Source: Oligoflexia bacterium (GTDB taxonomy: Bacteria; Bdellovibrionota; UBA1018). Taken from it: a DNA stretch of 64,000 nucleotides. A program made the position numbers and the translations under genes. The DNA lies in contig JARLHE010000006.1 of assembly GCA_031292385.1 (NCBI GenBank), positions 1 through 64,000 of the forward strand, written 5' to 3'. A model generated the notes under the pieces. The model searched no databases. It was not told the DNA's origin and saw only the letters and a program-made list of their open reading frames with translations. This document shows, piece after piece, positions 997 through 20,846 of this stretch; position 1 is the stretch's first letter; the number at the start of each line of letters is the position of its first letter.

Positions 997-2744
997 TATA
1001 ATAAGTTTGAGAACCTACCCTGTCCTCCCACGAGGACAGTTCCTTCTATCTTCCATAAATTCTCGTTAGGATTGCACTTTCTGCCCTTCGTTCGAGGGAT
1101 AGGTGTGCATTTCAACCCGTCCCTTAGGAGGACACGGAGAGCAGCGTTCGCTTTCACCGGGTCCTTATCAAACGACTCAGCCAATTTCTCATAGCGAGCT
1201 TTCAGCGCAAACGGCGTTACTAGCAGTTTATCCACCTTCGCAACGCGCAGCTCGTTCAGCCTAGTCGTTACGCCGTTCAAATCCCTTTCAATATCCATCA
1301 GCTCAGCATTGATCGCTTCCGATGCATCACCAAACTTCGCGATGTGTTTCACCAGATTGGTTTGCCGAGTTTTCAGCTCGCCTTGTCTCGCTTCAAGCCC
1401 TGCGATTTCATCAGGCGCATTCTTCAATCGCGCTTTGATCATGTCGTTAAGGATCTTGGCCGCGACTTCAAGCTGTGCCGGATCAAGCAGCACTTGCTTG
1501 ATGACTTCAATAATCTTTGGCTCCAGCTTTCTACGGCTAAGCATCCGATTATTTTTACAAGCGTTGGGATCTTTACGATGATGCATCACACATCCATAGA
1601 AGCCGCCACGCGTGCCGGTGATTTGATGAAGCGTCGAACCGCACTCACCGCAATGAAGTAGGCCCGCCAACAGGGAGCTAACTGCGCCAGTGGGAACCTT
1701 ACACGCACGCATCGCCTGATTGCGATCTTTGTTCTCTTTGAAGTTCTGCTTATGTTGTTGGACGATCATCTGCACAGCATTCCACTTCTCAATCGACACG
1801 ATCACCAAGTCTTCTCTGATCTTGCCACCACCCAAATGCTCAACCCACGTTTCACGCGGCATATCCTTTTGCACCGACTTGAGCGTTTCAGGGTTGAGCA
1901 TCATCTTGCGCTTTCCCCATCGCCAAATACCGATGTACTTCTCATTACTCAAAATCTTTTGAACAGAAGTTGGGCTCCACTTAGGCGGATTCTTTCTTGC
2001 CAGCTTTTGACTGCGTGTTGAAGGAGCATAGCCATGCTTATTGAGGTACTTAGCGATTGACGGATGACCCATACCCTTCAACTTCAAATCAAAAATCAGG
2101 TTAATGACCCGTGCTTCCTGCTCGTCGATGATGATTTTGAAATGGGATTGAACGTCATGACCGTGGAGAAGTCTGGTTTCAGTAGCTTCGGAATCAAAAC
2201 CATAGCATGTATCGCCAACACTCAGCCCCTTCAGTACGCGTGCTTCCATGCCGCGCTTGGTGCGATTCGCGTGGTCGTCGTTACCGATCTCATTCATATA
2301 GCCCTTGATGAAGAAGTGGCTTTTTGAGTTCGGCGCTTCTGAGCTGGTTCCGTCACAGACGCTGAAAAGCTCAACACCGTAGAAACGAAGAATGTCGTAA
2401 AGACCGATTTGACTTCCCAAGCTTCGAGTCAGTCGAGACAGATCATCCACGATCAAAACATCGAATAAGTTCCTACGGATGCCATCAAGGATCTTTTCGT
2501 AACCTACACGGTCAGCAACCTTGCCGGTTTCGGCTTCGTCCTTCGTTACCCAATCCTCAATGATGACAAGATCCCACTGCTCCGACGGAAACTTGAGTAG
2601 CCGAATGAGGGATCTACCTACGAGGTAGCGAATACGAGCAATCTGATCGTTAGCCGATTGCGGGTTCTGCATGTCGCTTGAGAAGCGGGCATAGATGGCG
2701 ACACGACACTTCCGTTTATCGTTTGATTTAATCTGCGGCTGCAT
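939..2744 (-). CDS. Large serine recombinase (site-specific integrase), reading into the tRNA
   Basis: 601 residues. N-terminal resolvase domain with the nucleophile region YARFSSDMQ (Ser at 22) and the IVDDLSRLTR motif near residues 98-107; then a recombinase domain (about 165-330), a zinc ribbon (C365-x2-C368 with C385 and C396) and a coiled-coil segment around 430-500. This is the standard order of large serine integrases, which insert and excise elements at att sites. The last 18 residues (from GGPERVRTSDLR on) are the reverse translation of tRNA-Arg, so the C-terminus is supplied by the integration target and would differ in the excised circle. Its start overlaps the end of the upstream zinc-ribbon gene by 17 bases, suggesting joint translation. 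The most likely integrase of the island. Confidence 0.92.
   Translation of the reverse strand: MQPQIKSNDKRKCRVAIYARFSSDMQNPQSANDQIARIRYLVGRSLIRLLKFPSEQWDLVIIEDWVTKDEAETGKVADRVGYEKILDGIRRNLFDVLIVDDLSRLTRSLGSQIGLYDILRFYGVELFSVCDGTSSEAPNSKSHFFIKGYMNEIGNDDHANRTKRGMEARVLKGLSVGDTCYGFDSEATETRLLHGHDVQSHFKIIIDEQEARVINLIFDLKLKGMGHPSIAKYLNKHGYAPSTRSQKLARKNPPKWSPTSVQKILSNEKYIGIWRWGKRKMMLNPETLKSVQKDMPRETWVEHLGGGKIREDLVIVSIEKWNAVQMIVQQHKQNFKENKDRNQAMRACKVPTGAVSSLLAGLLHCGECGSTLHQITGTRGGFYGCVMHHRKDPNACKNNRMLSRRKLEPKIIEVIKQVLLDPAQLEVAAKILNDMIKARLKNAPDEIAGLEARQGELKTRQTNLVKHIAKFGDASEAINAELMDIERDLNGVTTRLNELRVAKVDKLLVTPFALKARYEKLAESFDKDPVKANAALRVLLRDGLKCTPIPRTKGRKCNPNENLWKIEGTVLVGGQGRFSNLLYGGPERVRTSDLRIRSATL
976..996 (+). 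repeat. attL-type repeat: 3' end of tRNA-Arg
   Basis: These 21 bases are identical to 21,024-21,044. Together they bracket the A+T-richer island and mark its probable borders. The first 11 bases belong to the T-arm, the rest to the acceptor arm and CCA. Confidence 0.8.
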
Positions 2745-3054
2745 CTTGGATTCCTGCTTCCAAAATATCGGTGCAGATGAGCTCCAAAATTACTTGAAGT
2801 CCGATGACAAAATCATTTGATGTCACAGATTTTATAAATAACTCAGAGCTAGGCCGTTGGAAACCGGGGTCTAGCGTCTTCATACCATCTGAAGTACTTT
2901 TCAATTTCGACCGACGACGAGACTCTCGCTTCTTCTCGGCAGAACAGAGTTTACAGATGGTTTCATGGCGCCCAACGCCCTTACTGTAAAAGTGCGATAG
3001 CGGAAGTGATTGCTGACACTTATTACATGCTGATTGGGCTGGTACTGCTCCCAA
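2728..3054 (-). CDS. Small zinc-ribbon protein, coupled to the integrase
   Basis: 108 residues starting at a TTG (3054); an AAGGAG Shine-Dalgarno sits seven bases upstream, which decides this start over any later codon. Two CxxC pairs (C10/C13 and C34/C37) frame a short linker and are followed by a very basic stretch (EKKRESRRRSK), a layout expected of a nucleic-acid-binding zinc ribbon of the kind common in phages and plasmids. The C-terminal half has no recognisable motif. The stop lies inside the first codons of the serine recombinase, so the two are probably translated together; an accessory role in integration or excision (directionality factor) is plausible but not shown by sequence. 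Confidence 0.75.
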   Translation of the reverse strand: MGAVPAQSACNKCQQSLPLSHFYSKGVGRHETICKLCSAEKKRESRRRSKLKSTSDGMKTLDPGFQRPSSELFIKSVTSNDFVIGLQVILELICTDILEAGIQDAAAD

Positions 3055-3126
3055 GGTGAAACTCCTTGGGTGCCTTCATGGCAAAAAATCATAGCAAGTA
3101 GATGGTCAGTTACTGGACATCAGTCG

Positions 3127-3549
3127 CTATGAATTCTTTTTAGACTTCTTCTTCTTTGGCTTAAGTAACTCTACCGAAACAGCCTTCCCATACATGGATT
3201 CACATGCAGAAATCATCTTTTCCACGGAAGCAATGCCAGGAAACTTAATTTCAGGATAGCTTTTGCTTTTCTTTTTATTTACGAATTCATACAGCTTTTC
3301 AAAGGAAGTGATTTCCTTCTGCGCAGCTTTCCCTCCAATTCCGTACCATTCCGTGTAAAAATTGGTAACCATCCACGCTTTGATGCCGGGCACGACTTCC
3401 GCGGCAATATCAGCCGGCACTCTTTTATCGGTAATTTTTCTCCAATAGAGCCAGAGAGCAATATCTTCTGGTAGCCCGGCTATTTTTCTCGGCCCAGACT
3501 CCATCAATTTTTCAGCCGCTTTTATATCTACAACAATATGCTTTGCCAT
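3127..3549 (-). CDS. Hypothetical protein, lysine-rich tail
   Basis: 140 residues, start supported by TGGAGGAAC just before the ATG. I do not recognise the family. The protein is soluble, contains an aromatic central part (ALWLYWRKI, NFYTEWYGIGG) and ends in a lysine run (KPKKKKSKKNS) that could bind nucleic acid. It lies 72 bases upstream of the zinc-ribbon gene in the same direction, so it may be the first gene of an operon with that gene and the integrase. Confidence 0.65.
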   Translation of the reverse strand: MAKHIVVDIKAAEKLMESGPRKIAGLPEDIALWLYWRKITDKRVPADIAAEVVPGIKAWMVTNFYTEWYGIGGKAAQKEITSFEKLYEFVNKKKSKSYPEIKFPGIASVEKMISACESMYGKAVSVELLKPKKKKSKKNS

Positions 3550-3666
3550 GTTCCTCCAGAACTCATGCGATATGTCCGACTTGACACAGATATAACTACC
3601 TAAACATAATGAACATATTGAAGCATAATTTTAAATAGAAAAAATTCTTTACAATAACGCGCATTG

Positions 3667-3678
3667 CAATCATGATTG
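3667..3678. promoter_or_regulatory. 12-bp perfect palindrome in the divergent control region
   Basis: CAATCATGATTG is its own reverse complement. It lies 38 bases before the ATG at 3717, between two divergently transcribed gene groups (3549 leftward, 3717 rightward), an ordinary place for an operator. A 12-bp palindrome can occur by chance in A+T-rich DNA. Confidence 0.35.
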
Positions 3679-3716
3679 ATTAAGTCGGTTACTAATTCAA
3701 GAAACAAGGAGTCGTC

Positions 3717-4172
3717 ATGAAAAGAAGTAAAATTAAACTCGATATCTTCGGAAGTCGCAGAGCCAAAATCAAGCAAACAAGAAGAAGCCGAATATCGGCT
3801 AATCCTTCGACTAGTACATTCGGTCGGACGTTTTCCCCAGGGAGTCACAAACTGGTATTCGCAGATATCGAACATAAGTGGGGATACGGTACTATGCTGA
3901 CAGTAGCAAATGACGGCATGCCCACCGAACTACAGTTCGAGAACGACCGAGATACGCCGCTGTATGAATTGCAGAAGATAAAGAAATTCGCCTGCACCCC
4001 TATTGGTTCCTCATTTCATTTCAACGAAATCAACGGCGGCAAAGATCAGATCATCTTCGACGGTAACTGGAGTTCCGGAGTATATATTGCAGAGGTAGGT
4101 GGTGTTCGTAAGGTCCAAGAAATTTGGGTTCGTTGGCATCTTACGAAAGCTTTGCCTAAGAAGGCGAGCTGA
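3717..4172 (+). CDS. Hypothetical protein, first gene of a plasmid-like block
   Basis: 151 residues; ACAAGGAGTCGTC directly before the ATG is a strong ribosome-binding site. The first 35 residues are strongly basic (KRSKIKLDIFGSRR, KIKQTRRSR), the remainder looks like a beta-rich globular domain (LVFADIEHKWGYG, IIFDGNWSSGVYIAEVGG). No family recognised. It is followed after two bases by the next gene, so both are certainly one transcript. The basic N-terminus suggests DNA or RNA contact; that is inference only. Confidence 0.7.
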   Translation: MKRSKIKLDIFGSRRAKIKQTRRSRISANPSTSTFGRTFSPGSHKLVFADIEHKWGYGTMLTVANDGMPTELQFENDRDTPLYELQKIKKFACTPIGSSFHFNEINGGKDQIIFDGNWSSGVYIAEVGGVRKVQEIWVRWHLTKALPKKAS

Positions 4173-4174
4173 CC

Positions 4175-4789
4175 ATGAGTACCGATCAGCTTGTACCTAG
4201 TGATCGCGCATACCGTGATATCTTAAATATTCCACTGCGGCCAACATACAGCTTGAGTTACATTGGTGTTCAACCGGATCAGGCTGAGCCAGTGCAGCTT
4301 ATTCAAAATGACCAGTATAGTTTGAATGAGTTAAGAGATTTCATTTGTGCTCAGGGAAAATCTCGATTGCTCATGCTTCAAGTTGAAGGAGGCAATGATC
4401 TTGGTGTGTTGCGGGCTATTAATGAAAATGGTCTGCTCTGCCTTCGTAAGCGCGGTACAGTCTGGCCCTTTGTCGGACTCAATCTAATCAATCATTTGTT
4501 CAAGCACGCAATTTACAAGTCGGATCTTGCGTCAGGTACGTTTGAACTCAAAATTCCAAGTCGGATGATAGAAAGCAACCAAGCGAGCTGGTCACTAACT
4601 CGTGCTGATAGAATCGTCAAAGACCTCTGCGGGGCCTCGATGTCAGACATCGGTCTGAAGCTCGCAAGAGTTGAGCGCGATGAATTCGGCAATCCAATTA
4701 GGATTTACTCTTATCGGCTGAACTGGAGTTTATGCCTGATCAGACCGTCGTCGCCAATCAACCCAGGTGACCATCGGCTGACCAAATAG
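4175..4789 (+). CDS. Hypothetical protein, second gene of the plasmid-like block
   Basis: 204 residues beginning two bases after the previous stop, which implies translational coupling. No signal peptide or membrane segment. I do not recognise it. Residues 95-115 (VWPFVGLNLINHLFKHAIY) form an amphipathic or partly buried helix. Codon use is that of the A+T-richer island. A 129-base gap separates it from the ParB-like gene. Confidence 0.7.
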   Translation: MSTDQLVPSDRAYRDILNIPLRPTYSLSYIGVQPDQAEPVQLIQNDQYSLNELRDFICAQGKSRLLMLQVEGGNDLGVLRAINENGLLCLRKRGTVWPFVGLNLINHLFKHAIYKSDLASGTFELKIPSRMIESNQASWSLTRADRIVKDLCGASMSDIGLKLARVERDEFGNPIRIYSYRLNWSLCLIRPSSPINPGDHRLTK

Positions 4790-4918
4790 TTGGGGTAGAG
4801 TCGGCTGCGCTCTTTAATTTGAAAATCGGCACTCAAATCTAACCAAGTCACAGCCATCCTCAGTCCAAACCGCAAGTGCATTGTCCTTCTCGCGCAAAGC
4901 GCAGAAAGAAGGATTGAT

Positions 4919-5995
4919 ATGGCAAGTGAAGTAAAACAGTTTTGGGAAGAGGCCGCTCACGGTGAGATTCTTGAGGTCAGTTGGAAAGCATTAAGACCTG
5001 CTCGTGAAGGTTGGAGCATTAGAAAATCAGAAGACACTGAAAGCGATAACGCACTTGTCGAAAGTATCAGGCTCTGTGGTGTCAGCACGCCTGTTAAGGT
5101 AAGTGCAATTGATGGTGCGATCATCTCTGGCAACCGACGCTACCAAGCGGCAAAATCAGCCGGTGTTGAGCGGCTGCTTGCAATGGTTATCAAGGTTCCA
5201 TCCGAGCAGCACGAACGCTATCAGTATTTGAACGATAATCTTGGGCAGCGAACGCTAACCCAAAGTGAAATGTTACTTGCGACCAACGAGCGCAAGAAGC
5301 TTCATGAGCAACTATTCCCTGAGACGAAGGCGCATGTTGCTGGCGGGCTTAAGCGCGCTCTTGATACCACAAACGACAAATTGTCGCTTGTTTCGATGAA
5401 GGCGTTCACAGAGCAGGAAAGCATCCGTGTCGGAAAATCACGTCGGACCATAGAAAGAGAACTCTCAATTGCTGCAAAAGCACATGAGACAATTCTTAAA
5501 GCATTGGATGATGAAACGATTGATGCAACCAAAGCCTATGATCTGTCACGGTTGGACCCGTCACTTCAGATTGAAGCCTTTGAACTCGTGAAGTCTAAAG
5601 AAATTTCCTCCACCAAGTCAAAAAACTTGATTGAGAAATTTAAGAAGGAAAAGAAGGGCGAGAGACAAATCTACGTCATCGACGATAAAGCTGGTCCGGT
5701 TGAAATTAATAACTGGATCGAGTCGATTACGAGCAAGTGTAAGTCTACAGCAGAAGTGCTCAAGAAATTCTCCAAAGAAAGCGTAGCCAGCATTTCAGTC
5801 GATCCAGACAAATGGGGCGATCTAACTAAAGCAGTGAAAGCTCTAAATAGTGAAGCTGAAGTGGTTAACGGCGCAATCAATCCAAAGGTAATCGCTGGCA
5901 AGGCTAGGGTCTTCAGGACCCAGAAGACGCTGAACGTCGAAGATTCCGATGTCCAGTCGGATGAAACCAACGCCACGCTGCACCCGGAACTCTAA
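4919..5995 (+). CDS. ParB-like DNA-binding protein (copy 1)
   Basis: 358 residues, ATG preceded by AGAAGGATTGAT. Residues 15-100 match the ParB N-terminal fold, including the signature stretch around GNRRYQAAKSAG (G71-N72-R73-R74), which in the family forms the CTP- or nuclease-type pocket. A helical region with HTH character follows (about 105-225), then a lysine-rich linker and a C-terminal domain of unknown kind. ParB proteins bind centromere-like sites for plasmid or chromosome partition; relatives also serve as transcription or replication factors. No ParA ATPase is encoded nearby, so simple plasmid partition is not complete here. The stop precedes the next start by 22 bases. Confidence 0.82.
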   Translation: MASEVKQFWEEAAHGEILEVSWKALRPAREGWSIRKSEDTESDNALVESIRLCGVSTPVKVSAIDGAIISGNRRYQAAKSAGVERLLAMVIKVPSEQHERYQYLNDNLGQRTLTQSEMLLATNERKKLHEQLFPETKAHVAGGLKRALDTTNDKLSLVSMKAFTEQESIRVGKSRRTIERELSIAAKAHETILKALDDETIDATKAYDLSRLDPSLQIEAFELVKSKEISSTKSKNLIEKFKKEKKGERQIYVIDDKAGPVEINNWIESITSKCKSTAEVLKKFSKESVASISVDPDKWGDLTKAVKALNSEAEVVNGAINPKVIAGKARVFRTQKTLNVEDSDVQSDETNATLHPEL

Positions 5996-6017
5996 CCAAG
6001 CAATAAAGGCGCATTCT

Positions 6018-7439
6018 ATGATTAATAACAATGACGATCTATTTTCAAACCCAACTTCGCATAGAGCGGTTGCGAATTCCGGAGAAACCATAGCGGGCTC
6101 CTTTGGTAAACACGATGTCTTATATAATAAGCAATATTATTATCCAAAGGCCGGGCCACTCTCTGATCCATCTGGTGAAGCCGTAGGAGATCCCTTTGGT
6201 AAACCGAAGGTTCCATATAATAAGCAATATTTCTATCCAACCGATCCAACCTTGCTAGCCCCGTTTGATGTTCTATGGTTGACAGTAAATGAACCCGTTG
6301 ATGTGAGCTGGATTGAACCTTGCTTGGTTGATGAGCAGAGAAGAAAGCATAAATCCAAACGATGCTTTTCTTCCCAGAGCTCAGGCACATACCGACTTCC
6401 TAATGGGGCGGATGTTCGAATTTATCAAAACGTAGTATCCACTCAAATTCAAATCATCCCATACGAATGGAGTTATAATGGATTGATTGGATTTCTTGAA
6501 AAGCTTCTAAAGAAAAACTTCAAGGAAGCATACGTGACGAAGATTCACCAGCATGTAGATATTCCATTCACGCTAGAAGTAATTCTTAAGAGCGCGCTCG
6601 TGCGCAGACGAAGAACCTCCACGAGCTACGACGCCATGAACGCAAAAACGATGAAAAGGACCGCGGGTAGAATTCGTGAAGTTAAATTCTCACGTAGCTT
6701 TGGAAGTGAGAAGAGTCGTAGCATTGCCTTCTATGACTCGGCAAGGAAGCATGGCTTCAATGCGCCGATGACGCGCATTGAGATTAGGGATAATCATCCA
6801 AACTGCGCAAGCGTTAGGCACCCGCTAGATATTCCTTCGTTGCTCGAAACGTCAATCATGAGTGACGAAGTTCGATTGGCTGACGTGACTCCCTTACCAA
6901 ACCTGAGCGTCAAACACCAAGAGAGGTGGATGCTATTTGAAAGACTGGTAAATGAGCTGGGTTATCATGATGCGGTTTCAGAGATGCGCAGTATGGATAG
7001 AAACTTTCCTGCGCTGTTGACTCAAATCAGTCAAGTGAAACCGCTGCCGGTTGATTTGGACCACGAGTTTCGCCAGAGGTTGTTACTGTTCATTTGTATG
7101 CCGACAACGGCTAAAGAGTTGGAAATCATCAACTCTGACGATCTATCTAAAGTGAAACATCAATTTGTTCTGAACGGTGGGGCTCGGCCCGTTAACACCG
7201 ATAGCCAGTGGCGCCTGAATTACGATTCGCAACTCAGGTACTTCAAACAAATCGTTTTCTATCTCGATGAACTCAAAAGCCTCTTGATTGAAGCTGAGTA
7301 TCTTGCGCGGACGGATGGTTTTGGAAACGACTTTGATCTAACACAGCTTGACCCCGTTGAGTCCCTAAAGAAGCAAGTCATCGCTTACGGTATTCAGCGT
7401 GGTTGGTTAGGCGAAGTAAACGGGCAGGTGCTCCAATGA
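6018..7439 (+). CDS. Possible replication initiator-like protein with a repeated N-terminus
   Basis: 473 residues from the ATG at 6018; an ATG at 5949 in frame would overlap the upstream gene by 47 bases and is less likely. The N-terminus holds two copies of a 31-residue unit, with FGK..V.YNKQY.YP at about 29-43 and 60-74. The middle region has features like those of rolling-circle/phage replication initiators: KIHQHVDIPFTL and, later, IAFYDSARKHGFNAPMTRIE, which resembles the tyrosine-bearing and 'RiEir' stretch of those families. This resemblance is by eye and weak. Position between ParB-like genes suits a replication or maintenance role. Its stop overlaps the next start (ATGA). Confidence 0.65.
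   Translation: MINNNDDLFSNPTSHRAVANSGETIAGSFGKHDVLYNKQYYYPKAGPLSDPSGEAVGDPFGKPKVPYNKQYFYPTDPTLLAPFDVLWLTVNEPVDVSWIEPCLVDEQRRKHKSKRCFSSQSSGTYRLPNGADVRIYQNVVSTQIQIIPYEWSYNGLIGFLEKLLKKNFKEAYVTKIHQHVDIPFTLEVILKSALVRRRRTSTSYDAMNAKTMKRTAGRIREVKFSRSFGSEKSRSIAFYDSARKHGFNAPMTRIEIRDNHPNCASVRHPLDIPSLLETSIMSDEVRLADVTPLPNLSVKHQERWMLFERLVNELGYHDAVSEMRSMDRNFPALLTQISQVKPLPVDLDHEFRQRLLLFICMPTTAKELEIINSDDLSKVKHQFVLNGGARPVNTDSQWRLNYDSQLRYFKQIVFYLDELKSLLIEAEYLARTDGFGNDFDLTQLDPVESLKKQVIAYGIQRGWLGEVNGQVLQ
6100..6231 (+). repeat. 93-bp-period direct repeat inside the putative initiator gene
   Basis: CCTTTGGTAAAC occurs at 6100-6111 and 6193-6204, and ATATAATAAGCAATATT at 6122-6138 and 6215-6231, both with a 93-base offset. 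The period is 31 codons, so the repeat is also in the protein. The A+T-rich core is unusual for coding sequence and could double as a DNA site. Confidence 0.75.
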
Positions 7440-7873
7440 GCGAGTATCGAATTAACTGCACAGGCGATGTCGTTAAAGGTGACATCATCCAATTCAAAGA
7501 AACGGTTTTTGAGCGCCATAACGGGCTGATACAGGATGTTGGCGAAAGAACAATTCAGGCGCAGGTGTTGAGTGATAGCTACGGAAGCAAAAAGCAACAG
7601 CACACCTTCACTCTGGAAGTAATTGGAAGCTATGGAAAAGAGCCACTTGCCGCAGGAAAAAAGATACACCGCAAGGGTCGAAATATCTATCGGCATGGAA
7701 CCTGGCGGCAAGCGTGGTCAGACGAAGCGCAAAGAAAGCTTGCTCTTGATGAGAAGCATACGCGTGGGGAAAAGGCGCGATTTGATCGGGCTGCTAGGAA
7801 ATCAAAGCCAACTCTGCCCGCTGGATTTCGTAGCCTCTTCTCCAAGGAAAAAATCAAAGAATGGCTGAAGTAA
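7436..7873 (+). CDS. Hypothetical basic protein
   Basis: 145 residues starting at the ATG that overlaps the previous stop (ATGA), so it is translationally coupled. The first half is beta-rich (GDVVKGDIIQFKETVFERHNG, then TFTLEVIGSYGK), similar in feel to a small OB- or SH3-like domain; the second half is basic and helical (RKGRNIYRHGTWRQAW, KARFDRAARKSK). I do not recognise the family. The tight operon with ParB-like genes suggests a DNA- or RNA-related accessory role. Confidence 0.7.
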   Translation: MSEYRINCTGDVVKGDIIQFKETVFERHNGLIQDVGERTIQAQVLSDSYGSKKQQHTFTLEVIGSYGKEPLAAGKKIHRKGRNIYRHGTWRQAWSDEAQRKLALDEKHTRGEKARFDRAARKSKPTLPAGFRSLFSKEKIKEWLK

Positions 7874-7874
7874 T

Positions 7875-8981
7875 ATGATTGCCCATACTCTCATTGATCT
7901 TGACGAAATCGTAGTGCGTGAGGACCGTTTTGCTACGAAGCGAATGAGCATGACCGACTTCATGCGCGTACAAAATGGCATTAATCAAGTCGGCCACATT
8001 ATTCAACCGATTGGCGTTACGCCTAAAGGTCCCGATGGTAAGCATACTTTGATATTTGGTTTAGCCCGGTACCTGGCTTATTGTCAGAATCGCGAAAAGC
8101 TTCAAGGAAGCGTCGATCCTGCTGGAACTTGGAATTACGTAGATAAAAGCCTCATCCCATTTTCTGGCACCCCGGTCATGATTTCGTATGAGCACATTCG
8201 TAACTTTTCCAAAATACCCGCAATCATATTGACGCTTGATACGTCAGATACATTGCAAATCGAGTGGGTTTCCTTGCTCGAAAACTTTTCTAGGAGAGAT
8301 CTGCACCCGCTTGAACTTTCAGAGATTCTTTGTGAGTTCAAGAGACGTTACGAAGAGGAGCATCCAGAGGCCAGACTTGGGGCAACAGGCGGGGGTCGTA
8401 ATGGGGAAGGTACTCGTACGAAAACTCAGATTGCGGATTCCGCAAACCCAGTCGAATCATTCGTAGACTACTTTTCAGGGATCTTGCCGATCAAGAAGCG
8501 CACAATTTACGAACTAATATTTCTCGGCTACCTGGACAATATTCAACAGCGTGCCCGGTTCAGAGAAAATAAGATGACTAAGTCTACTGCGATTCAGTTG
8601 GCGAGGAAGTCACGGGCTACCATGAAGGGGCGTACACCTACTTCATCCCAGGAACGTCGACGAGATGCGGAACGGGCAAGGATGTCGAAAACGTATAAAG
8701 ACGCAGTTGATTTGCATGGATCGCCTCGTATCCAGCACCCAAACTCAGAGTTCAGCCAAGCCTCGGAGGATCAGGTGTCACGACTTATAGCTTTAACGGA
8801 TGAGCTACGGCGAGAACTCAAGAAGGCGTTCTATTGCACTGATCTCATTCAGTGCACTGATTCCAGTAAGCGACGGTTTCTACGGAGAATGAAGATGGTA
8901 GTATATAGGTCTGAGAGAATGATGGGGATTGAGCGCCATTTGGCAAGCTTAAGGGCTGGTGGTTTACGACGGGGCAAATAG
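7875..8981 (+). CDS. ParB-like protein (copy 2)
   Basis: 368 residues, starting one base after the previous stop. The N-terminal 140 residues fit a ParB/sulfiredoxin-type fold: GHIIQPIGVTP, then the pocket motif FGLARYLAY (61-69, with G62 and R65), then a helix with LLENFSRRDLHPLEL, the usual ParB stretch after the core domain. A KorB/HTH-like helical region follows (about 195-240, KKRTIYELIFLGYL) and a basic C-terminus. It differs strongly from copy 1, so this is not a recent duplication. Again no ParA partner is present. It may control replication, partition or transcription of the element. Confidence 0.8.
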   Translation: MIAHTLIDLDEIVVREDRFATKRMSMTDFMRVQNGINQVGHIIQPIGVTPKGPDGKHTLIFGLARYLAYCQNREKLQGSVDPAGTWNYVDKSLIPFSGTPVMISYEHIRNFSKIPAIILTLDTSDTLQIEWVSLLENFSRRDLHPLELSEILCEFKRRYEEEHPEARLGATGGGRNGEGTRTKTQIADSANPVESFVDYFSGILPIKKRTIYELIFLGYLDNIQQRARFRENKMTKSTAIQLARKSRATMKGRTPTSSQERRRDAERARMSKTYKDAVDLHGSPRIQHPNSEFSQASEDQVSRLIALTDELRRELKKAFYCTDLIQCTDSSKRRFLRRMKMVVYRSERMMGIERHLASLRAGGLRRGK

Positions 8982-8984
8982 CTG

Positions 8985-9116
8985 ATGGCCGAGCGCAGGA
9001 GCAAGAAGAGAGACGGCAGCGCGATGAAATGGCCCGTTGAAGAGTGGCATCTCGATCCGGTAAAGTCCAGATCGCCAAAGGTGGCGTTATATCCGCTTAG
9101 GATCGGTCAGGTTTAG
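8985..9116 (+). CDS. Candidate small protein of 43 residues
   Basis: An ATG three bases after the ParB-like stop opens a 43-codon frame with basic N-terminus (MAERRSKKRDGSAMKW). There is no clear Shine-Dalgarno, but translational coupling to the gene before it would not need one. Too short to assign; it may be a chance frame. Confidence 0.3.
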   Translation: MAERRSKKRDGSAMKWPVEEWHLDPVKSRSPKVALYPLRIGQV

Positions 9117-9193
9117 TGACCTTAGACGAACGCTGAGCTGCTCCGTAAGGGTTTCTTTCTGGACACCAACGTGAATCAGTTTTAAATTTGGCC

Positions 9194-9946
9194 ATGGCCG
9201 AACTTAGCCTCCATCAAAAACGACAACTCTTAGAAAAAGGTTGGGTTGTTATCCCCCAAGTCGTTCCTGCCGAAATGGCACGGGCGGCGCTACATACGAT
9301 TAACTCGACAATCGAAAGCTATCTCGACTCCATCCAGATTCGCGCGCACGAATTGAAAACTGACGAGCGCCTTACAAGTTTGTTGATGCAAACCGATGCT
9401 TTTTCCTTGGTTGAATCAGCTCTAGGCAACGGAAAAGTCATTCCTTCAACTAATGTTCAGTGCGCATTACGTTTTCCCGATGATGAAAACGAAGACCTTA
9501 AGAGAACACCTCATATTGATGGTTTCCATCCGACAGTAGATGGAAATCCAGGAAGCGTAAAGCCGTTCATTGCCATTGCTGGTTTTTTTCTAAACGACAT
9601 TGAACAGGATAACGCCGGGAATTTTATGGCTTGGCCGGGAACGCATGGTCAATTTGCCAAGTATTTTGAAAAACATGGAGCTGACCCCGAGTTGAAACTT
9701 GGTATTCCACCGGTTGATCTTCCTCAGCCTGTGCAAATCAAGGCCAAGGCCGGAGATATGATCTTTGCGCACTATCAACTAGCCCATGCCGTTGCACCAA
9801 ATCTAAGTCACGCGATTCGATACGCGGTCTATATTCGTATGCATCATGCAGACAGACCTAAAGATTCCCTCGATGTCCTTACCGACATTTGGAAGTACTG
9901 GTATGGAATGTCGGAAGTCGTCGGCAAAGACCAATGGAAAAAATAG
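9194..9946 (+). CDS. Phytanoyl-CoA dioxygenase (PhyH)-family oxygenase
   Basis: 250 residues from ATG 9194 (a TTG two codons earlier is the alternative; neither has a good Shine-Dalgarno). The Fe(II)/2-oxoglutarate oxygenase core is visible: the metal-binding H107-x-D109 in PHIDGFHP, and the distal histidine H198 in AHAVAPNLSHAIRY with R209 for 2-oxoglutarate. The family hydroxylates small molecules such as acyl-CoAs and natural-product intermediates; the substrate cannot be read here. The next gene starts inside its last codons (9934), so they form a unit. It is cargo: nothing else in the island is metabolic. Confidence 0.87.
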   Translation: MAELSLHQKRQLLEKGWVVIPQVVPAEMARAALHTINSTIESYLDSIQIRAHELKTDERLTSLLMQTDAFSLVESALGNGKVIPSTNVQCALRFPDDENEDLKRTPHIDGFHPTVDGNPGSVKPFIAIAGFFLNDIEQDNAGNFMAWPGTHGQFAKYFEKHGADPELKLGIPPVDLPQPVQIKAKAGDMIFAHYQLAHAVAPNLSHAIRYAVYIRMHHADRPKDSLDVLTDIWKYWYGMSEVVGKDQWKK

Positions 9947-10659
9947 AAAGAGAACTACGTTTTCTAAAACTGTACGCGGTCGTTTTGACACTCATCTGCG
10001 CTGTCCTCTTTGGATTGGTCATAAAGATCACGAACAATAAAAGATTTGGCGAAATTGACGTTGAGAGGATCAACATCATCGAAGCCGATGGCAAATTGAG
10101 AATGGTTCTGTCCAATAAAGTACGTCAGCATCCCGGCACCATGGATGGAATCACTTATGATGAGCGTCGAGGTCAAAGGCCTCCGGGCCTCATGTTCTTC
10201 AACGAAAAGGGAGATGAGGCCGGAGGTTTAGTTTTTGATGGAAATACAGGAAAAGGCCAAGGGGGCTCACTCACCTTCGACAAATTTCGTGGAGATCAAA
10301 CGATTCAGTTCATCCATGAGGAGGGACCGGATGGAAGCTACTTTGCCGGATTGAAAATGAATGATCAAAACATGCCATTGAATGACCTGGTCAATAGGCA
10401 GAAGGAAATCGCTAAGCTCCCGACAAAAGAAGATCAGAACGCAGCCTACCGAGCGTTAAGAGACCAGGGCCTACATATGACCGAGCGCCTGAGGATTGGC
10501 AAAGATTTCGATAAGTCGTCAATCATCAAAATGAGGGACTCTATGGGAAAAACGCGAATAGAGTTGAAGGTTGAAACGAATGGCAATGCAAAACTGAACT
10601 TCCTCGATGAACGCGGCAAGGTCATTTATAGCCTTCCCCCAGATCTCATAAGCAAGTAG
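9934..10659 (+). CDS. Single-pass membrane protein with repeated beta-strand domain
   Basis: 241 residues from the ATG at 9934, which overlaps the end of the PhyH gene by 13 bases. A short N-terminal cytoplasmic helix is followed by one membrane segment (about 13-33, LYAVVLTLICAVLFGLVI) and an outside domain of short glycine- and aspartate-rich strands (ERINIIEADGKLRMVLSNK, GGLVFDG, GSLTFDKF, RIELKVETNGNAKLNFLDERGK). Such 'DG-K-R-M-V-SN' repeats occur in conserved membrane-anchored proteins of unknown function. Function here is not known; coupling to PhyH suggests they act together. Confidence 0.8.
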   Translation: MEKIERELRFLKLYAVVLTLICAVLFGLVIKITNNKRFGEIDVERINIIEADGKLRMVLSNKVRQHPGTMDGITYDERRGQRPPGLMFFNEKGDEAGGLVFDGNTGKGQGGSLTFDKFRGDQTIQFIHEEGPDGSYFAGLKMNDQNMPLNDLVNRQKEIAKLPTKEDQNAAYRALRDQGLHMTERLRIGKDFDKSSIIKMRDSMGKTRIELKVETNGNAKLNFLDERGKVIYSLPPDLISK

Positions 10660-10666
10660 TTTGCTC

Positions 10667-10694
10667 CGTTCAGAAAAGTAAAATATTCTGAACG
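10667..10694. repeat. 9-bp inverted repeat, possible resolvase site or terminator
   Basis: CGTTCAGAA (10,667-10,675) and TTCTGAACG (10,686-10,694) are exact inverted copies. TTCTGAACG recurs at 10,758-10,766 in the 3' end of the resolvase gene, and CCAGTTAG next to that copy appears inverted as CTAACTGG at 10,709-10,716. Several short copies beside a resolvase gene are what a res/crossover site looks like; the hairpin between convergent genes could also just be a terminator. Confidence 0.45.
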
Positions 10695-10750
10695 CAAAAT
10701 CCTGGCGGCTAACTGGTTGATTTTACTTACTCGCACTTGGGCGTTTTGGA

Positions 10751-11338
10751 TTAGGTTTTCTGAACGCCAGTTAGCGCGTGGATTGTTCCTGGCGATACGC
10801 CAAGCAGCTCTGCAATCTGCCTAAATGTCTTCCCTTGTTGGCGAAGAGACAATACTTGTTTTCGGTCTACCCCTTTAGATGGACGCCCCAACTGAATTCC
10901 CTTTGCCTTGGCCTCAGCAAGTCCTGCACGCACACGCTCTTGAATTAATGCGGCTTCAAATTCGGCCATCGCACCTATGATTTGCATAAGCAATCGTCCC
11001 GCTGGAGTAGTGAGATCAATCTGGTCCTTCAAGCTGACGAATTGAATTCCTAAACTTTCGATTTCCTCAAGCGTCAGAACAAGATCCCGAAGCGATCTGA
11101 AAAATCGATCCAATTTCCAAGCCACGATTATATCTATCTTCCTTGCGCGAGCATCTTGCATTAACCGTTTGAGCTGTGGGCGTTGAGCATTGGTGCCGGT
11201 GGCTTTATCTTCGTAGATGTCGACAACGTTCCAGCCGCGAAGCTTTGCAAATTCCTGAATGTCCGCAAGTTGCATATCGGTCGATTGATCTTGGGTGCTG
11301 ACCCTTAGGTAAATTCCTGCCCGTTTCGGTTTACTCAT
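10751..11338 (-). CDS. Small serine resolvase/invertase
   Basis: 195 residues. Complete resolvase domain: YLRVSTQDQ with the nucleophile S14, then AWKLDRFFRS near 75-84, then the dimer helix (LMQIIGAMAEFEAALIQERVRAGL) and a C-terminal Hin-type HTH (LRQQGKTFRQIAELLGVS). Such enzymes resolve cointegrates or multimers, or invert DNA. The ligase-like gene and an 88-residue gene lie just upstream in the same direction (11-base gap), so it is the last gene of a three-gene unit. Short repeats at 10,667-10,775 are candidate target sites. Confidence 0.92.
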   Translation of the reverse strand: MSKPKRAGIYLRVSTQDQSTDMQLADIQEFAKLRGWNVVDIYEDKATGTNAQRPQLKRLMQDARARKIDIIVAWKLDRFFRSLRDLVLTLEEIESLGIQFVSLKDQIDLTTPAGRLLMQIIGAMAEFEAALIQERVRAGLAEAKAKGIQLGRPSKGVDRKQVLSLRQQGKTFRQIAELLGVSPGTIHALTGVQKT

Positions 11339-11349
11339 TCGGTACTCCC

Positions 11350-11616
11350 TCAGAGAATCGGCTTCGAGAGATCCCAGCGTTCAAGATTCATCTCAAACAA
11401 TAATGCTGTCTCGCCTTCTGATTCGTTGTAATCAAGCTTGATGCGTCCCATGCGCGGATCAACCAAGGTCTTGCAGATGACGTGGTTCATGATGATCTGA
11501 TAATCTTCTTCGTCTATATTCTCGAGGTCTTTGCCCTCAGTCGCTTCCTTATAATGAGCGTTAAAGATTTCGCGTTCATGACGGCCTACCAACTCGGTCT
11601 TAAAGATGACTCTCAT
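11350..11616 (-). CDS. Hypothetical acidic protein, coupled to the ligase-like gene
   Basis: 88 residues, start overlapping the stop of the ligase-like gene (ATGA). Acidic in the middle (EGKDLENIDEEDYQIIMN). No known motif. The tight overlap says it is produced with the ligase-like protein and may be its partner. Confidence 0.7.
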   Translation of the reverse strand: MRVIFKTELVGRHEREIFNAHYKEATEGKDLENIDEEDYQIIMNHVICKTLVDPRMGRIKLDYNESEGETALLFEMNLERWDLSKPIL

Positions 11617-12677
11617 CGTTTGCTTCTCCTATTTTGCTTTTGATTAAAGTGTGTGGTCCACATCGCTGGCGTTGCCGCCGCCACGTAGGGCCCATCAAAA
11701 TCCTGAAAGCTTAAACCGACGTGGCCCATGTGCTCAGCATGGTAATAAGCTTGCGCAAGATCACGAGTGTTACGGACAACATGCATCCGACCCAAGCGCA
11801 GCGCCGTCTTTGGGTTCTTGCTTTTGATTCGATGACAGAACATTTCGAGGTTGATGCGACGGGTGCTGTAAAGTGTTTCGTCTTTGGCGATGCTGCCGTT
11901 AAAGATATCTATCGAGCATCGGTCATTGACGACGAACTTGAGTCGAGCAGCAAACTGCTTTAACTCTAACGCTGAAATGCTTTTCAGCTTCGAGTGCAAA
12001 AGACGTTCGCTATCGCCCCATTGCGGGGTGGTTAGGATTCCATCGAGCACGTAATCACCGGCATCAGACTGAACCAGCTCACGCCCTAACGCGTCCAAGA
12101 TAGGAACCTGCCGAAATCCATCGGTGTATGCGGTTGCGCATCCTTGATACACCACGAAAAGCACTCTTTGGCCGTCTATGAGAGGCATTGAAGCCAGCCG
12201 TTTTGGGACTTCCGTCAGTAGCGCGTGACCTTGAGCCGGTCGCATGTATCCAAACCGCAAGTTAAACTCAGGCCACACTCGGCTCAGGATGCGAAGAGAT
12301 ACCCCGCAATGCAGATCCCGCTGCAAACAGCGAAGATACCATTTAGTTTCTAGCGGCGACGTACACTCAAAGAAACTCCGTACAAACTGACGGGACTGAC
12401 TGCCGGTCAGACTTCGCTGCGATAAGATGACGATGATTTTCTCAAACTCTTGCCAGTTTTGATCGGGTGTTCGAACATGAGCATTCTTCTTTGCTTCGAT
12501 CACCGGTAGCGTTGGAAAGCCGAGTCGCCAGTCAAACGCATAACGAAAGATTTCCTTCAAAACCGGCATGGGCGTTGGTGGATTCAGTAGCTCAAGCCGC
12601 AGCTTTCGCTTACGACCTGGTGTCTTCTCCAACTTCTCTAGCGCCATCAGAGCATTCAAAATCAATGCGTCACTCAT
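11613..12677 (-). CDS. ATP-dependent DNA ligase-like protein lacking the catalytic lysine
   Basis: 354 residues. The order of parts fits ATP-dependent DNA ligases of the T4 type: an N-terminal helical DNA-binding region ending in WYLRCLQRDLHCGVSL and ILSRVWP (114-136), then the nucleotidyltransferase domain. At motif I, where ligases have K-x-D-G-x-R, this protein has L166-I-D-G-Q-R171: the lysine that takes the AMP is a leucine. At motif III, usually D-G-E, it has LDGILT (211-216), so the glutamate is also lost. The OB-like C-terminal part follows. It therefore cannot be a normal ligase; a DNA-binding or regulatory role is likely. The frame is intact over its whole length, which argues for a selected pseudoenzyme rather than decay. 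Two downstream genes overlap or nearly abut. Confidence 0.72.
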   Translation of the reverse strand: MSDALILNALMALEKLEKTPGRKRKLRLELLNPPTPMPVLKEIFRYAFDWRLGFPTLPVIEAKKNAHVRTPDQNWQEFEKIIVILSQRSLTGSQSRQFVRSFFECTSPLETKWYLRCLQRDLHCGVSLRILSRVWPEFNLRFGYMRPAQGHALLTEVPKRLASMPLIDGQRVLFVVYQGCATAYTDGFRQVPILDALGRELVQSDAGDYVLDGILTTPQWGDSERLLHSKLKSISALELKQFAARLKFVVNDRCSIDIFNGSIAKDETLYSTRRINLEMFCHRIKSKNPKTALRLGRMHVVRNTRDLAQAYYHAEHMGHVGLSFQDFDGPYVAAATPAMWTTHFNQKQNRRSKR

Positions 12678-12939
12678 GCGGTGGGCTCTCCTAAAACCGC
12701 CTTCTATGAGTATACGTCTACGGCATCCCGATTTGAACGAAAGTACGGTGAAAACAGGCTGAAAGTGGCCTATTTTAGCATGTTTTTAGAAGGCACAAAA
12801 ATACAGTGATTAACCCCTTGCGCCTCTAGCGGTTTTCGCAGGGGATAAGTTGAGATCGAAAATTAGGAGCCATATAATAACGGTATGACCTAATTATTGG
12901 TCAATTTAGTCTCATCTGAGGCCGGAAGGAGTTCTCGTC

Positions 12940-13662
12940 ATGGCCCAACCCAATCTAAAGCAGCGAATCATGCTGGTATCGCGTGATTTACAAAAGCCCG
13001 ATTTCACCCGCCACATTTCAGCCATTATGAAACGTGCCGATGAATCCAAATGCGACACTATTTCATTTGCGCTGTTTACGTTTACCGAGTCACCGACATG
13101 GGAAAAGTTCTTTGCTCATACTCGTCACGTTCAACGGGTGCTTGTCGAAGTGGGAGAAATGGAGAAGCACAGCGGTCAACTCATCATCCAACTTTGGCAA
13201 CGTGACCAGAAAGAGCCGCGGTTAATGACCCGTCAATTCGCAAGATCCAGCGAACCGTCAAGCCGAAAGCTCTCACTGATTCAGCAGTTCAAGAAGCGTG
13301 TGACTGGAAAGTTGATGACCCTGATCTGTGGTGAGCTTTCCATCATCAATATAGCAAGACCGTCGCAAGCAGTGAAAGATCCGTTTGGATTTAGAAAGCT
13401 TCTTGATCGTTCCAAGGTGCAAGTGATCTTATCCCCTGCCCATACATGGATGGTCAGACACGAGATGAATAAAAAGCGTGCCGCACTTTCAAAGCGGAAC
13501 CGGCTGCTAGTCAGCGTTTGGAACCGCGACAGCAAACGCAAAGCCGACTCCAAGCTTCCATGGATCGCCTACCGCAACGGACGAAAGAAGGTGATTCGGG
13601 AGATTGAAAGCCCGATCTCATCCAGACCAGACATTCGCTTGGGTCTGATTAGCAACGAGTAG
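12940..13662 (+). CDS. Hypothetical protein, possible nitrilase-fold relative
   Basis: 240 residues; GGAAGGAGTTCTCGTC before the ATG is a good ribosome-binding site. The segment GKLMTLICGELSIINI, followed by VQVILSPAHTWMVRHEM and then SKRNRLLVSVWNRD, follows the order of the last core strands of carbon-nitrogen hydrolases (glutamate/cysteine strand, 'ilspa', 'aRA.en..vv..N'). The catalytic cysteine position holds C-G-E rather than C-x-E in a typical context and no catalytic lysine could be placed, so enzymatic activity is doubtful. The assignment is by eye and weak. Confidence 0.55.
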   Translation: MAQPNLKQRIMLVSRDLQKPDFTRHISAIMKRADESKCDTISFALFTFTESPTWEKFFAHTRHVQRVLVEVGEMEKHSGQLIIQLWQRDQKEPRLMTRQFARSSEPSSRKLSLIQQFKKRVTGKLMTLICGELSIINIARPSQAVKDPFGFRKLLDRSKVQVILSPAHTWMVRHEMNKKRAALSKRNRLLVSVWNRDSKRKADSKLPWIAYRNGRKKVIREIESPISSRPDIRLGLISNE

Positions 13663-13674
13663 GCGAAGAAGTTC

Positions 13675-14031
13675 TCATTTGGCGCGAGTGCGTTGATAGA
13701 GCTGGTTGAACTTCTTCCAAATCTCCCCAAGAGCCGATTTGTCGGAGTCAGACAAGCTCAAACCGCTAGAGAACATCAACTGATGAAGATCTACGTCAAG
13801 AGCTTCGGCAATAGAGGCGATGGTACTGAGTCGAACGTCTTTGGCGACATTGTTTTCAAGCTCGTTGACCGTGCTCAAAGCAATCTTTGCGACCTTGGCA
13901 AGTTCGTTTTGGCTAAAGCTCTTTGACTCTCGAAAAGCCTTGAGCTGAGCGCCCAGGGTTTCCAGAGCGGGCTTAAGCTGTTTTGTTCCGTAGTGTTTTC
14001 GTATCCGCTTTGACTTTGATGCAGTGACCAT
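13675..14031 (-). CDS. Xre-family HTH regulator
   Basis: 118 residues from the ATG at 14,031, which has GAGG ten bases upstream; a TTG at 14,073 would add 14 residues but would put the operator inside the gene. The HTH (LKAFRESKSFSQNELAKVAK, then ALSTVNELENN) is classical Xre/Cro-C1 type. The C-terminal part is short and helical, with no effector domain. A perfect 11-bp inverted repeat covers the start codon, so the protein probably represses itself. The neighbouring gene 13,662 is convergent and ends 12 bases away; the likely regulated partner is the divergent gene at 14,199. Confidence 0.88.
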   Translation of the reverse strand: MVTASKSKRIRKHYGTKQLKPALETLGAQLKAFRESKSFSQNELAKVAKIALSTVNELENNVAKDVRLSTIASIAEALDVDLHQLMFSSGLSLSDSDKSALGEIWKKFNQLYQRTRAK

Positions 14032-14061
14032 AAGCTTAATCCTCGTGGGTTTAAGCTTATG
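14029..14061. promoter_or_regulatory. Perfect inverted repeat, candidate operator of the Xre regulator
   Basis: CATAAGCTTAA (14,029-14,039) and TTAAGCTTATG (14,051-14,061) are exact inverted copies separated by 11 bases, so the two half-site centres lie 22 bases (two turns) apart. The left arm includes the regulator's start codon. Position, symmetry and spacing fit an autoregulatory operator. Confidence 0.7.
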
Positions 14062-14198
14062 GAAAGTGAGCAAAATCAGTGATTTCGGTATTTCAGTTGA
14101 TTCGTTCTTTTTAGACTAATTGTTTAGAGCCTTAAGAATCGCCGCCTAAGACCGATGAGTAGATTAGTCGGCTATATCTAGGGCAGATGGAGGAGAAA

Positions 14199-15032
14199 AT
14201 GAGTTCAGCGCAAAGAAAGCCAAATTCTGGAAGTCTAGCAAGGGATCTGATCGCCCTCAAGGCCGTCAATGACATCGCCCAAACTCGCGCCATGCAGGAA
14301 CAGGCGTTAGAGTTACAGCAGAAGCAGCTTCGTATTCAGGCGCTTGAGCAAGAGAAGGAAGATTTAGAGAAGTCTCGTGAACAGAAGCTTAGGAACCTTG
14401 AAACCGTCAAACAACACGGCCTCAAAATCCACTATGAGCATCTTCCAATCGTAGAGGATATAGCACTCAGTAAAAGTCTGTCGCTTGAGGAAGCCACCCA
14501 GGTATTTCGTGATCGGCTGGTAGAAAAGGGTCTTAGTCTTTTGCTGCTAGAAAATGAGTCCAATCGTGACCAAATGATCAGTGATCTTGCCAATGAATAT
14601 CAGCTCACTGAGGATGATGTTCAAAGAAAGATTAAATTTTGTTTTCGCTTTTTCGATAATCGCAGCTCTTTGTTAGATGATTTGAAGTTTCTAAAAGAAA
14701 GCACTGCCCGAGAGAAAGAAGGATCAAGACTAGCAAACGAATTTGCGGCTAAGCAACGACTTGCAAAGAAAGAAGCAGCAAAGCGGGGGTGGAAAAAGTT
14801 AGGAAGCTTAATCGTTTCAATTTGGGGCTTGATGCTCTTTGTGGCTGCCATTGCTCCCGAGCTTTCCTTGTTTCCAAGAATTTGCTTTGTCCTGGCGGGT
14901 GCTTTTTCCTTTTCGCCAACATTCAAATTGATCTCAAAGCTCATACCTTGGAAAATCCATCCCGGGGTACGATTCATCCTTTGCTGTACCTTGTTCTTTA
15001 TCGCTGTACCTTTTATTCCCAGTCAAAGCTAA
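14199..15032 (+). CDS. Membrane protein with N-terminal coiled coil
   Basis: 277 residues from the ATG at 14,199, chosen because GGAGGAG lies just before it (an ATG four codons upstream is the alternative). Residues 30-75 are a glutamine- and glutamate-rich coiled coil (QALELQQKQLRIQALEQEKE). A soluble helical domain follows (about 75-190), then two or three membrane segments at the C-terminus (LIVSIWGLMLFVAAIAPELS, FPRICFVLAGAFSF, FILCCTLFFIAVPFI). No family recognised. It is divergent from the Xre gene and may be its target. Confidence 0.78.
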   Translation: MSSAQRKPNSGSLARDLIALKAVNDIAQTRAMQEQALELQQKQLRIQALEQEKEDLEKSREQKLRNLETVKQHGLKIHYEHLPIVEDIALSKSLSLEEATQVFRDRLVEKGLSLLLLENESNRDQMISDLANEYQLTEDDVQRKIKFCFRFFDNRSSLLDDLKFLKESTAREKEGSRLANEFAAKQRLAKKEAAKRGWKKLGSLIVSIWGLMLFVAAIAPELSLFPRICFVLAGAFSFSPTFKLISKLIPWKIHPGVRFILCCTLFFIAVPFIPSQS

Positions 15033-15169
15033 AAGAACGTTTTTTAGGCTATACCGAACAGTAACATACGGGTCTTATTGAGCTTTTATATTGAAATATC
15101 CCTAGAGGATGGGGCAAAAGCGCGTTATAATATTAATATAGTCAACTATTGATTTAGAAAGTAGGACGT

Positions 15170-16075
15170 ATGAAAAAGCTCTCCACTCTTTCCGTTATGA
15201 TCCTGATTGGAACCACCACACTCACGGGCTGCGGTAGTTCAGCAACCACTGCTAGCAACTCGTCTCTTAACTTCCCGACTGCAGGTTTGAATGCTGGCAC
15301 ATCGGATAGCCCGCTGACGGAAGGTAGCGTGACTTTCGGTGCAGTGGTCGGTGCGACGATCATTGCGCATGAAACTAAATCTACAGGTGACTACGATGAC
15401 TACGGAAACACGAGTAAAGAATGTGGTACCGCAACTACAGACTCGAACGGTTTGTTCGCTTTGAACCTCGATGGTACGAATTGCCACACGGGTTCGAATG
15501 CTCAAGCTGGAAGACCTGAAATCTTGACCTTCACCATGACGGGAGGATCATATGTAGAAGAATCAACTGGCGCTACGGTGCAGGTCACGCAAACTTTCCA
15601 CTCCGTGATGGTGATTGCTGATCCGGTGAATGCTCCGACTACGTTGACGGTAGCAATCGGTCCTGTAACTGAGATCGCTTGGAGAGCGTTCATTTACACG
15701 ATGACTCCGGGTGTGCTTAGTGGAACGGATGGCCACTTCGATACTGGTGCTACTAGCTATACCGCTTGTGATAGTGATAGTTACTCGGGTATCGCGGTTT
15801 GCGCTAACTCGGCTAACCAGCAGATTGAAACTGCTTTGGGAGTCACCGACATTGTCGGTGTATTACCTCAGCAAGACTCTAACTACAATCAGGTCATCCT
15901 CAATATCAGTAACGCGGCGAAGGCGCTCAGTACTGATTCAGTTGCTGTGACCAACGCGTACACGACTCTTTGGGGTGACAACGGAAACCTCAATTCAGTG
16001 AGCCAGGTAAGCGTGCTTAACGGTGCGGGCGCTACCGTGAGCATCACGCCTCCTGCATTCAGTAGCTTGCAATAA
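15170..16075 (+). CDS. Lipoprotein of unknown function
   Basis: 301 residues; AAAGTAGGACGT before the ATG. Signal peptide with lipobox LTGC (Cys21). The mature protein is rich in Thr, Ser, Gly and Asn with several cysteines (for example ECGTATTDSNGLFALNLDG, CDSDSYSGIAVC), typical of an exported beta-rich domain; the TTDSNGLFAL stretch is like the carboxypeptidase-regulatory type repeats used in surface proteins. Codon use is biased differently from its island neighbours (many GCT, ACT, TCG). Function is unknown; it could be a surface component of the element's host interaction. Confidence 0.78.
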   Translation: MKKLSTLSVMILIGTTTLTGCGSSATTASNSSLNFPTAGLNAGTSDSPLTEGSVTFGAVVGATIIAHETKSTGDYDDYGNTSKECGTATTDSNGLFALNLDGTNCHTGSNAQAGRPEILTFTMTGGSYVEESTGATVQVTQTFHSVMVIADPVNAPTTLTVAIGPVTEIAWRAFIYTMTPGVLSGTDGHFDTGATSYTACDSDSYSGIAVCANSANQQIETALGVTDIVGVLPQQDSNYNQVILNISNAAKALSTDSVAVTNAYTTLWGDNGNLNSVSQVSVLNGAGATVSITPPAFSSLQ

Positions 16076-16087
16076 CTAGTCAAGCGG

Positions 16088-16732: not shown

Positions 16733-16733
16733 C

Positions 16734-18757: not shown

Positions 18758-18804
18758 TACCGAACGATACAAGCGCCTGGTCAGGAACTTGAGAAAGAAA
18801 AATA

Positions 18805-20810: not shown

Positions 20811-20846
20811 AAAAAAGCCGCGAAGCGAAAGCTAAGCGGCTTTTTT
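20811..20846. terminator. Rho-independent terminator (both directions possible)
   Basis: AAAAAAGCCGC (20,811-20,821) and GCGGCTTTTTT (20,836-20,846) pair perfectly around a 14-base loop. It directly follows the partial tRNA copy and may be the original terminator of a tRNA gene carried along. Confidence 0.85.

Follow-up and report, generated by a model that had tools for sequence, protein, structure and literature searches.

Introduction

What might two ParB-like genes be doing on either side of an initiator-like gene, if no ParA gene accompanies them? The question is raised by a run of genes at positions 3717–9116 of a 64,000-nucleotide stretch of DNA (contig JARLHE010000006.1, positions 1 to 64,000, forward strand) from an Oligoflexia bacterium of the phylum Bdellovibrionota (assembly GCA_031292385.1; 3.39 Mb in 62 contigs); the whole of this stretch is hereafter called the window, and the run of genes the block. 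An earlier note, made from the sequence alone, described the block as two unrelated ParB-fold proteins with a possible initiator, considered a ParB without ParA unusual, and suggested a new module of an integrated element.

Judged from its genes and repeats, the block lies within an integrative element that carries a Rep_trans-like protein and two orphan ParB-fold proteins, and in which no ParA was found. The strongest result of the analysis, drawn from comparison with other genomes of the phylum, is that a gene of this Rep family together with a serine integrase overlapping a tRNA forms a recurring arrangement, while the ParB pair flanking Rep is a single-case observation. We lean, if only modestly, toward the view that the block is a maintenance or mobilization module of a rolling-circle-type integrative element resident at a tRNA-Arg gene, with the ParB proteins acting as clamp regulators or accessory factors.

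An integrative element at a tRNA-Arg gene

The element measures 20.1 kb (976–21044), encloses the block, and is bounded by a perfect 21-bp direct repeat of the 3′ end of its integration target, tRNA-Arg(ACG) (919–996, + strand; identified by ARAGORN and Rfam RF00005). The left attachment (att) repeat, CGAACCCTCTCGGGTCCGCCA, occupies 976–996 and corresponds to the last 21 bases of the tRNA; the right one, at 21024–21044, is an exact copy, and these are the only two copies in the window. Base composition follows the same limits, since GC content is about 41–50% within 1001–21000 and mostly 53–60% outside; just past the right repeat it climbs from about 46% to some 57%. A degraded second att copy (AGGTTCGAA...CGGGTCCGCCAT) at 20771–20802, some 240 bp inward of the right end, may be what an earlier or a tandem insertion left behind.

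Next to the left end lies the gene of a large serine integrase of 601 amino acids (939–2744, − strand), which has Resolvase, Recombinase, and Zn_ribbon_recom domains and a match, at 1.7e-70, to the phage integrase family phrog_95. Its last 19 codons or so are an antisense reading through the tRNA-Arg gene. Adjoining it is a small putative zinc-ribbon protein (2728–3054, − strand); in a related element, that of genome L049, a protein similar to it by eye lies between Rep and integrase.

A Rep family associated with tRNA-targeting integrases

The initiator or relaxase candidate is encoded at 6018–7439 (+ strand; alternative start 5949), and is 473 amino acids long from the ATG at 6018, or 496 from the upstream start. 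When 369 genomes of the phylum were searched with an alignment of this protein and two of its relatives, 19 of them, the source genome included, proved to hold the family. Two of the relatives (L026 and L030) match PF02486, the Rep_trans family, at about 2e-5 (24.8 bits, where the cut-off is 29.6), and another match, of one relative to Phage_CRI (PF05144), is at 0.011. Rep_trans proteins are described as sharing an N′ Asp and the motifs RxD, T/SxY/ExG, YxKxxE, and W/LxRxE, those of Phage_CRI being similar (PMC5714925), and most of the Rep relatives have DK at N′, RxD, IYDK, and TRIE.

In the alignment of 16 sequences of the family, D107, G240, Y262, R276, E278, and F353 are invariant. The first of these supplies the N′ Asp, and motif IV reads RIE in the window protein, with both R276 and E278 among the invariant residues and the leading W/L position not conserved; at motif II, where the alignment is gapped, the sequence SRSFG retains S and G alone. 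The alignment and the relatives' matches support the description of this protein as divergent and Rep_trans-like. Membership in Rep_trans itself is not claimed, because motif I departs from the pattern and the profile score stays below the cut-off. Near the start of the gene, positions 6078–6240 hold an in-frame tandem repeat with a period of 93 nt (31 amino acids), in which 10 of the 13 codons with an identical amino acid are also identical in DNA.

The family is informative above all for its surroundings. Seven other genomes (L008, L010, L035, L036, L037, L038, and L049) have a serine recombinase gene close to the Rep-family gene, and in six of the seven the 3′ end of the recombinase gene overlaps a tRNA encoded on the other strand, namely tRNA-Glu (L008), tRNA-Asp (L010, L035, L036, and L037), or tRNA-Asn (L049). 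This layout, as read from the gene maps, matches that of the window at tRNA-Arg. The conserved association, which the earlier note had not listed, is thus that of a Rep-like gene near a predicted tRNA-targeting serine integrase. The nearest relative of the window-type Rep, in L039, is instead located near a tmRNA, by genes that by eye are excisionase-like and tyrosine integrase-like.

Some of the related elements carry further genes of note, all recognized by eye. A set resembling type I restriction-modification lies beside Rep and integrase in L036 (11595–16554), and reverse-transcriptase-like proteins, with a YIDD or YCDD motif, are found near Rep and integrase in L035 (28–1101) and L010 (368–1732).

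Layout and conservation of the block

All of the genes of the block are on the + strand and tightly packed. Proteins A (151 amino acids; 3717–4172) and B (204 amino acids; 4175–4789), separated by 2 nt, have no significant family matches, and B was found in the window only, with none elsewhere among 153 genomes of relatives. Then follow ParB1 (4919–5995) and Rep. As a start for Rep, the in-frame ATG at 6018, 22 nt beyond the stop of ParB1, is no less plausible than 5949, and the overlap between the two genes may therefore be only apparent. The gene of a DUF7699 protein (7436–7873, within an open reading frame (ORF) of 7403–7873; PF24766, 1.4e-22) overlaps the Rep stop at its likely ATG, 7436; ParB2 (7875–8981) starts 1 nt past the DUF7699 stop, and the last member, a 43-residue basic ORF and candidate gene (8985–9116), starts 3 nt past ParB2. 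The abutting or overlapping Rep, DUF7699, and ParB2 genes would fit joint expression. A possible sigma-70-like promoter for the block, at 3581–3610 on the + strand, has 11 of 12 matches, such sites being no commoner in the region than in shuffled sequence.

This gene order was found in none of the Rep neighborhoods, plasmids, phages, or viral contigs searched, and none of them held a copy of the block. The Rep-family neighborhoods fetched, which extend to at most 20 kb and in several cases are cut by contig ends, contain no homologue of ParB1, ParB2, A, B, or DUF7699, and the gene content flanking Rep varies between the relatives examined. A conserved six-gene module was therefore rejected within the sequence searched. 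DUF7699 has its homologues on three viral contigs, at 42–53% identity, among neighbors that are phage-like by eye and include no homologue of the window's ParB proteins or Rep; no other genome of the phylum has it above the family cut-off.

Observations of this kind would also be expected if the block were unconnected cargo, with ParB1 and ParB2 both phage-type ParB-fold proteins acquired along with DUF7699 by recombination and sharing no function with Rep. The uniqueness of the gene order, the viral relatives of DUF7699 that lack ParB and Rep, the changing gene content near Rep, and the fact that the best matches of the ParB proteins are PHROG families of phage proteins all favor it. It is opposed by the arrangement itself, as same-strand genes that overlap or abut, with Rep in their middle, suggest joint expression, and we regard this explanation as possible though doubtful.

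Two orphan ParB-fold proteins

ParB1, which has a helix-turn-helix region, matches PF02195 (Pfam ParB_N) at 2.5e-7, over the curated cut-off, as well as phrog_4715 (6e-23) and phrog_3264 (3e-11). ParB2, a second and strongly diverged protein, has no ParB match in Pfam and matches the same two PHROG families, phrog_3264 at 7e-15 over residues 6–296 and phrog_4715 at 3e-12. With such scores the predicted ParB fold of both proteins is beyond chance. A direct BLASTP comparison gives no match, the two being too diverged. Because they share these PHROG families, and because both align by hhalign to the same orphan ParB family (ParB1 at 97%, E 5e-11; ParB2 at 70%, E 4e-5), their sequences are best seen as those of diverged relatives rather than of unrelated proteins.

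The nucleotide-binding motifs of the pair differ. ParB1 keeps the P-motif as GNRR and has DNLGQR, of the form DNxxR, where ENxxR is expected; ParB2 keeps ENFSR, contains a long insertion, and has GxRR degraded to GLAR, and therefore its nucleotide binding is in doubt. Relatives of ParB2 were absent from the phages and viral contigs searched. Its top match in the phylum (L004) was discarded as spurious, being by eye a trigger factor, and its three other matches there are ordinary orphan ParB proteins. A "phage" match of ParB1, MT837279, was likewise set aside, as it is a bacterial chromosome by gene content and has an adjacent ParA-ParB pair.

The scan of 20 element proteins brought up no ParA, and in six frames of the element the sole Walker-A match is LmuB, at 18901. 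The ParA-binding motif, defined as [LFI]G[KR]G[LFI] (PMC12704722), is absent from both ParB1 and ParB2. Relatives of ParB1 at E values up to 1e-7 occur in 13 other genomes of the 369; across 15 distinct loci, these 13 plus two weaker ones, none has the motif and none has a ParA-type Walker gene within about 1.5 kb. Since the nearest relatives of ParB1 in the phylum are, by this measure, orphans too, and since a 2025 survey reports orphan ParB-fold proteins to be frequent on plasmids and prophages and common on mobile elements (PMC12704722), the apparent lack of ParA beside ParB is not remarkable. As a separate observation, a ParB-like protein whose gene has no ParA neighbor is widespread in one bacterial family of the phylum (L051–L053, L068–L080).

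The same data bear on whether ParB1, ParB2, or both could form a true partition system with a borrowed ParA, binding a centromere on the excised circle and using one of the ParA proteins of the host, or hitch-hiking on the nucleoid without any NTPase. The host does have an ordinary ParA-ParB pair on each of the contigs C60 and C15, and the window's ParB genes adjoin an initiator gene, an arrangement also seen in the maintenance regions of plasmids. But the ParA-linked ParB of C60 carries LGKGL, where both window proteins are devoid of the ParA-binding motif, their nearest relatives are unlinked to ParA, and the element contains no repeated exact palindrome with 6-bp arms resembling parS (degenerate or single sites fall outside this search). 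A partition role of this kind is unlikely, and the pair is probably regulatory.

In light of these results, the earlier note is accurate as to the open reading frames and their tight packing, and as to the lack of ParA in the block; none was found on the rest of the element either. Both of its ParB-fold proteins are real, only not unrelated; its view that ParB without ParA is unusual does not hold. The initiator it proposed is strengthened, in the form of a divergent Rep_trans-like protein, through the PF02486 matches of the relatives. Of its new module of an integrated element, the second half stands on the att repeats, tRNA, and integrase. The conserved gene set does not stand, as its order recurred nowhere within the sequence searched, which is the outcome that the note itself had named as refuting it. 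The unusual ParA-less partition module is weakened.

A proposed mode of action

Under the reading that we favor, a maintenance or mobilization module, the serine integrase would excise the element, and the Rep-like protein would then nick the resulting circle at an origin, leading to rolling-circle replication, to conjugal mobilization by a helper, or to both. Rep_trans proteins of integrative elements are known to be able to serve as relaxases (PMC7563843). ParB1 would load on the DNA of the element as a clamp, and ParB2 perhaps likewise, in a nucleotide-independent manner; such clamps may regulate the operon or assist Rep, in the way of KorB or VirB, instead of driving segregation through ParA. 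These two proteins are published examples of clamp-type relatives of ParB that regulate transcription (PMC11790492 for KorB, PMC10770331 for VirB).

Several results weigh against this reading. The Rep-like protein has no significant direct match to any family, Pfam PF02486 included, and its motif I is KIH, where 13 of the 16 aligned sequences have RxD. At motif III, the tyrosine is the invariant Y262 and the protein reads YDS for YDK, with Ser in place of Lys. Because of these two changes, KxH for RxD and Ser for the motif III Lys, the protein may be inactive or may use a changed metal site. The AlphaFold models of Rep (from three sequences; pLDDT 42.9) and of ParB2 (from a single sequence; pLDDT 36.8) are too low in confidence for a test of fold. 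The search for an origin hairpin brought up no clear candidate: there is nothing notable upstream of A, and a stem-loop over the ribosome-binding region of ParB1 is barely more stable than shuffles (z −1.9). Neither a coupling protein nor type IV secretion genes were recognized among the 20 element proteins scanned. Finally, no binding sites were found in the element, so the step in which ParB clamps would act as regulators is one that we infer from the protein family.

The changes in Rep could also mean that it is a degenerate regulator that only binds DNA and does no nicking in this element. In addition to motifs I and III, this would agree with the relative in L006/L015, in which the aligned motif I position holds a residue other than Asp or His. 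Against it, the window protein retains its N′ Asp, tyrosine, and RxE, and D204, which adjoins the motif I His, is Asp in 15 of the 16 aligned sequences; we find such a loss of function improbable. We give slightly less credence yet to the bolder idea that Rep, DUF7699, and both ParB proteins constitute one ParA-free machine for replication and inheritance, in which ParB clamps would load a nicking enzyme with a His metal site or hold the replicating circle.

Other genes of the element

At the far end of the element, LmuA and LmuB genes stand side by side (17654–20511, + strand; PADLOC, 3e-91 and 4e-202, respectively). This complete-looking Lamassu pair, consisting of a nuclease (LmuA) and an SMC-like protein (LmuB), is predicted to be defense cargo. 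Directly after the block, 9188–9946 encodes a phytanoyl-CoA dioxygenase-like protein (PhyH, barely over the cut-off), and within the element there is a second, small serine recombinase of the resolvase/invertase type (10751–11338). The protein at 11613–12677 (− strand) matches phage ATP-dependent DNA ligases (phrog_114, 1e-20); in it, LIDG replaces the motif I KxDG and the catalytic lysine appears to be lost. The region 16088–17309 (− strand) includes a helix-turn-helix protein that matches phrog_8102 very weakly (phage replication initiation, 0.0097), adjoining a protein of no assigned function.

Significance and comparison with known systems

These findings suggest that Bdellovibrionota harbor a set of integrative elements that target tRNA genes and are linked by one Rep_trans-like family. 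Pfam does not recognize this family at the curated cut-off, and it can be accompanied by defense genes, here Lamassu. The window also offers a case, open to testing, in which a single initiator lies between two orphan ParB-fold proteins. Should the ParB proteins load or regulate Rep, a replication-linked role would join the growing list of ParB functions other than partition; if they do neither, the pair would be ordinary mobile-element cargo.

The closest parallel to the Rep-like protein is offered by the Rep_trans proteins (PF02486), such as RepC of pT181, MobT of Tn916 and ICEBs1, and the relaxases of IME_oriT elements (PMC7563843). Like them, it is a single protein near the integrase of an integrative element, with the N′ Asp, a conserved Tyr, and RxE, and two members of its family are just under the PF02486 cut-off. 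In contrast, the window protein is unmatched by that profile, lacks the Asp of RxD and the Lys of YxK, and has an N-terminal 31-residue repeat and a long C-terminal extension. The ParB proteins share with other orphan proteins of the ParB-CTPase fold (PMC12704722; PHROGs 4715 and 3264) the ParB N-terminal fold, the lack of ParA and of its binding motif, the location on a mobile element and, in ParB1, the GxRR motif; they differ in that two diverged copies flank one Rep gene, and in the GLAR and long insertion of ParB2.

With KorB (RK2) and VirB (Shigella), ParB relatives on mobile DNA that regulate transcription as CTP-dependent clamps (PMC11790492, PMC10770331), the likeness is one of proposed mode only. 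The ParABS partition systems of plasmids likewise have ParB-fold proteins beside an initiator gene, but no ParA, no ParA-binding motif, and no parS-like repeats were found in the element. The overall resemblance extends to integrative and mobilizable elements (IMEs), with which the element has in common a Rep_trans-like protein, an integrase with att repeats at a tRNA, and no recognized transfer apparatus; what sets it apart is that the tRNA encodes the C-terminus of its integrase, one of the large serine type.

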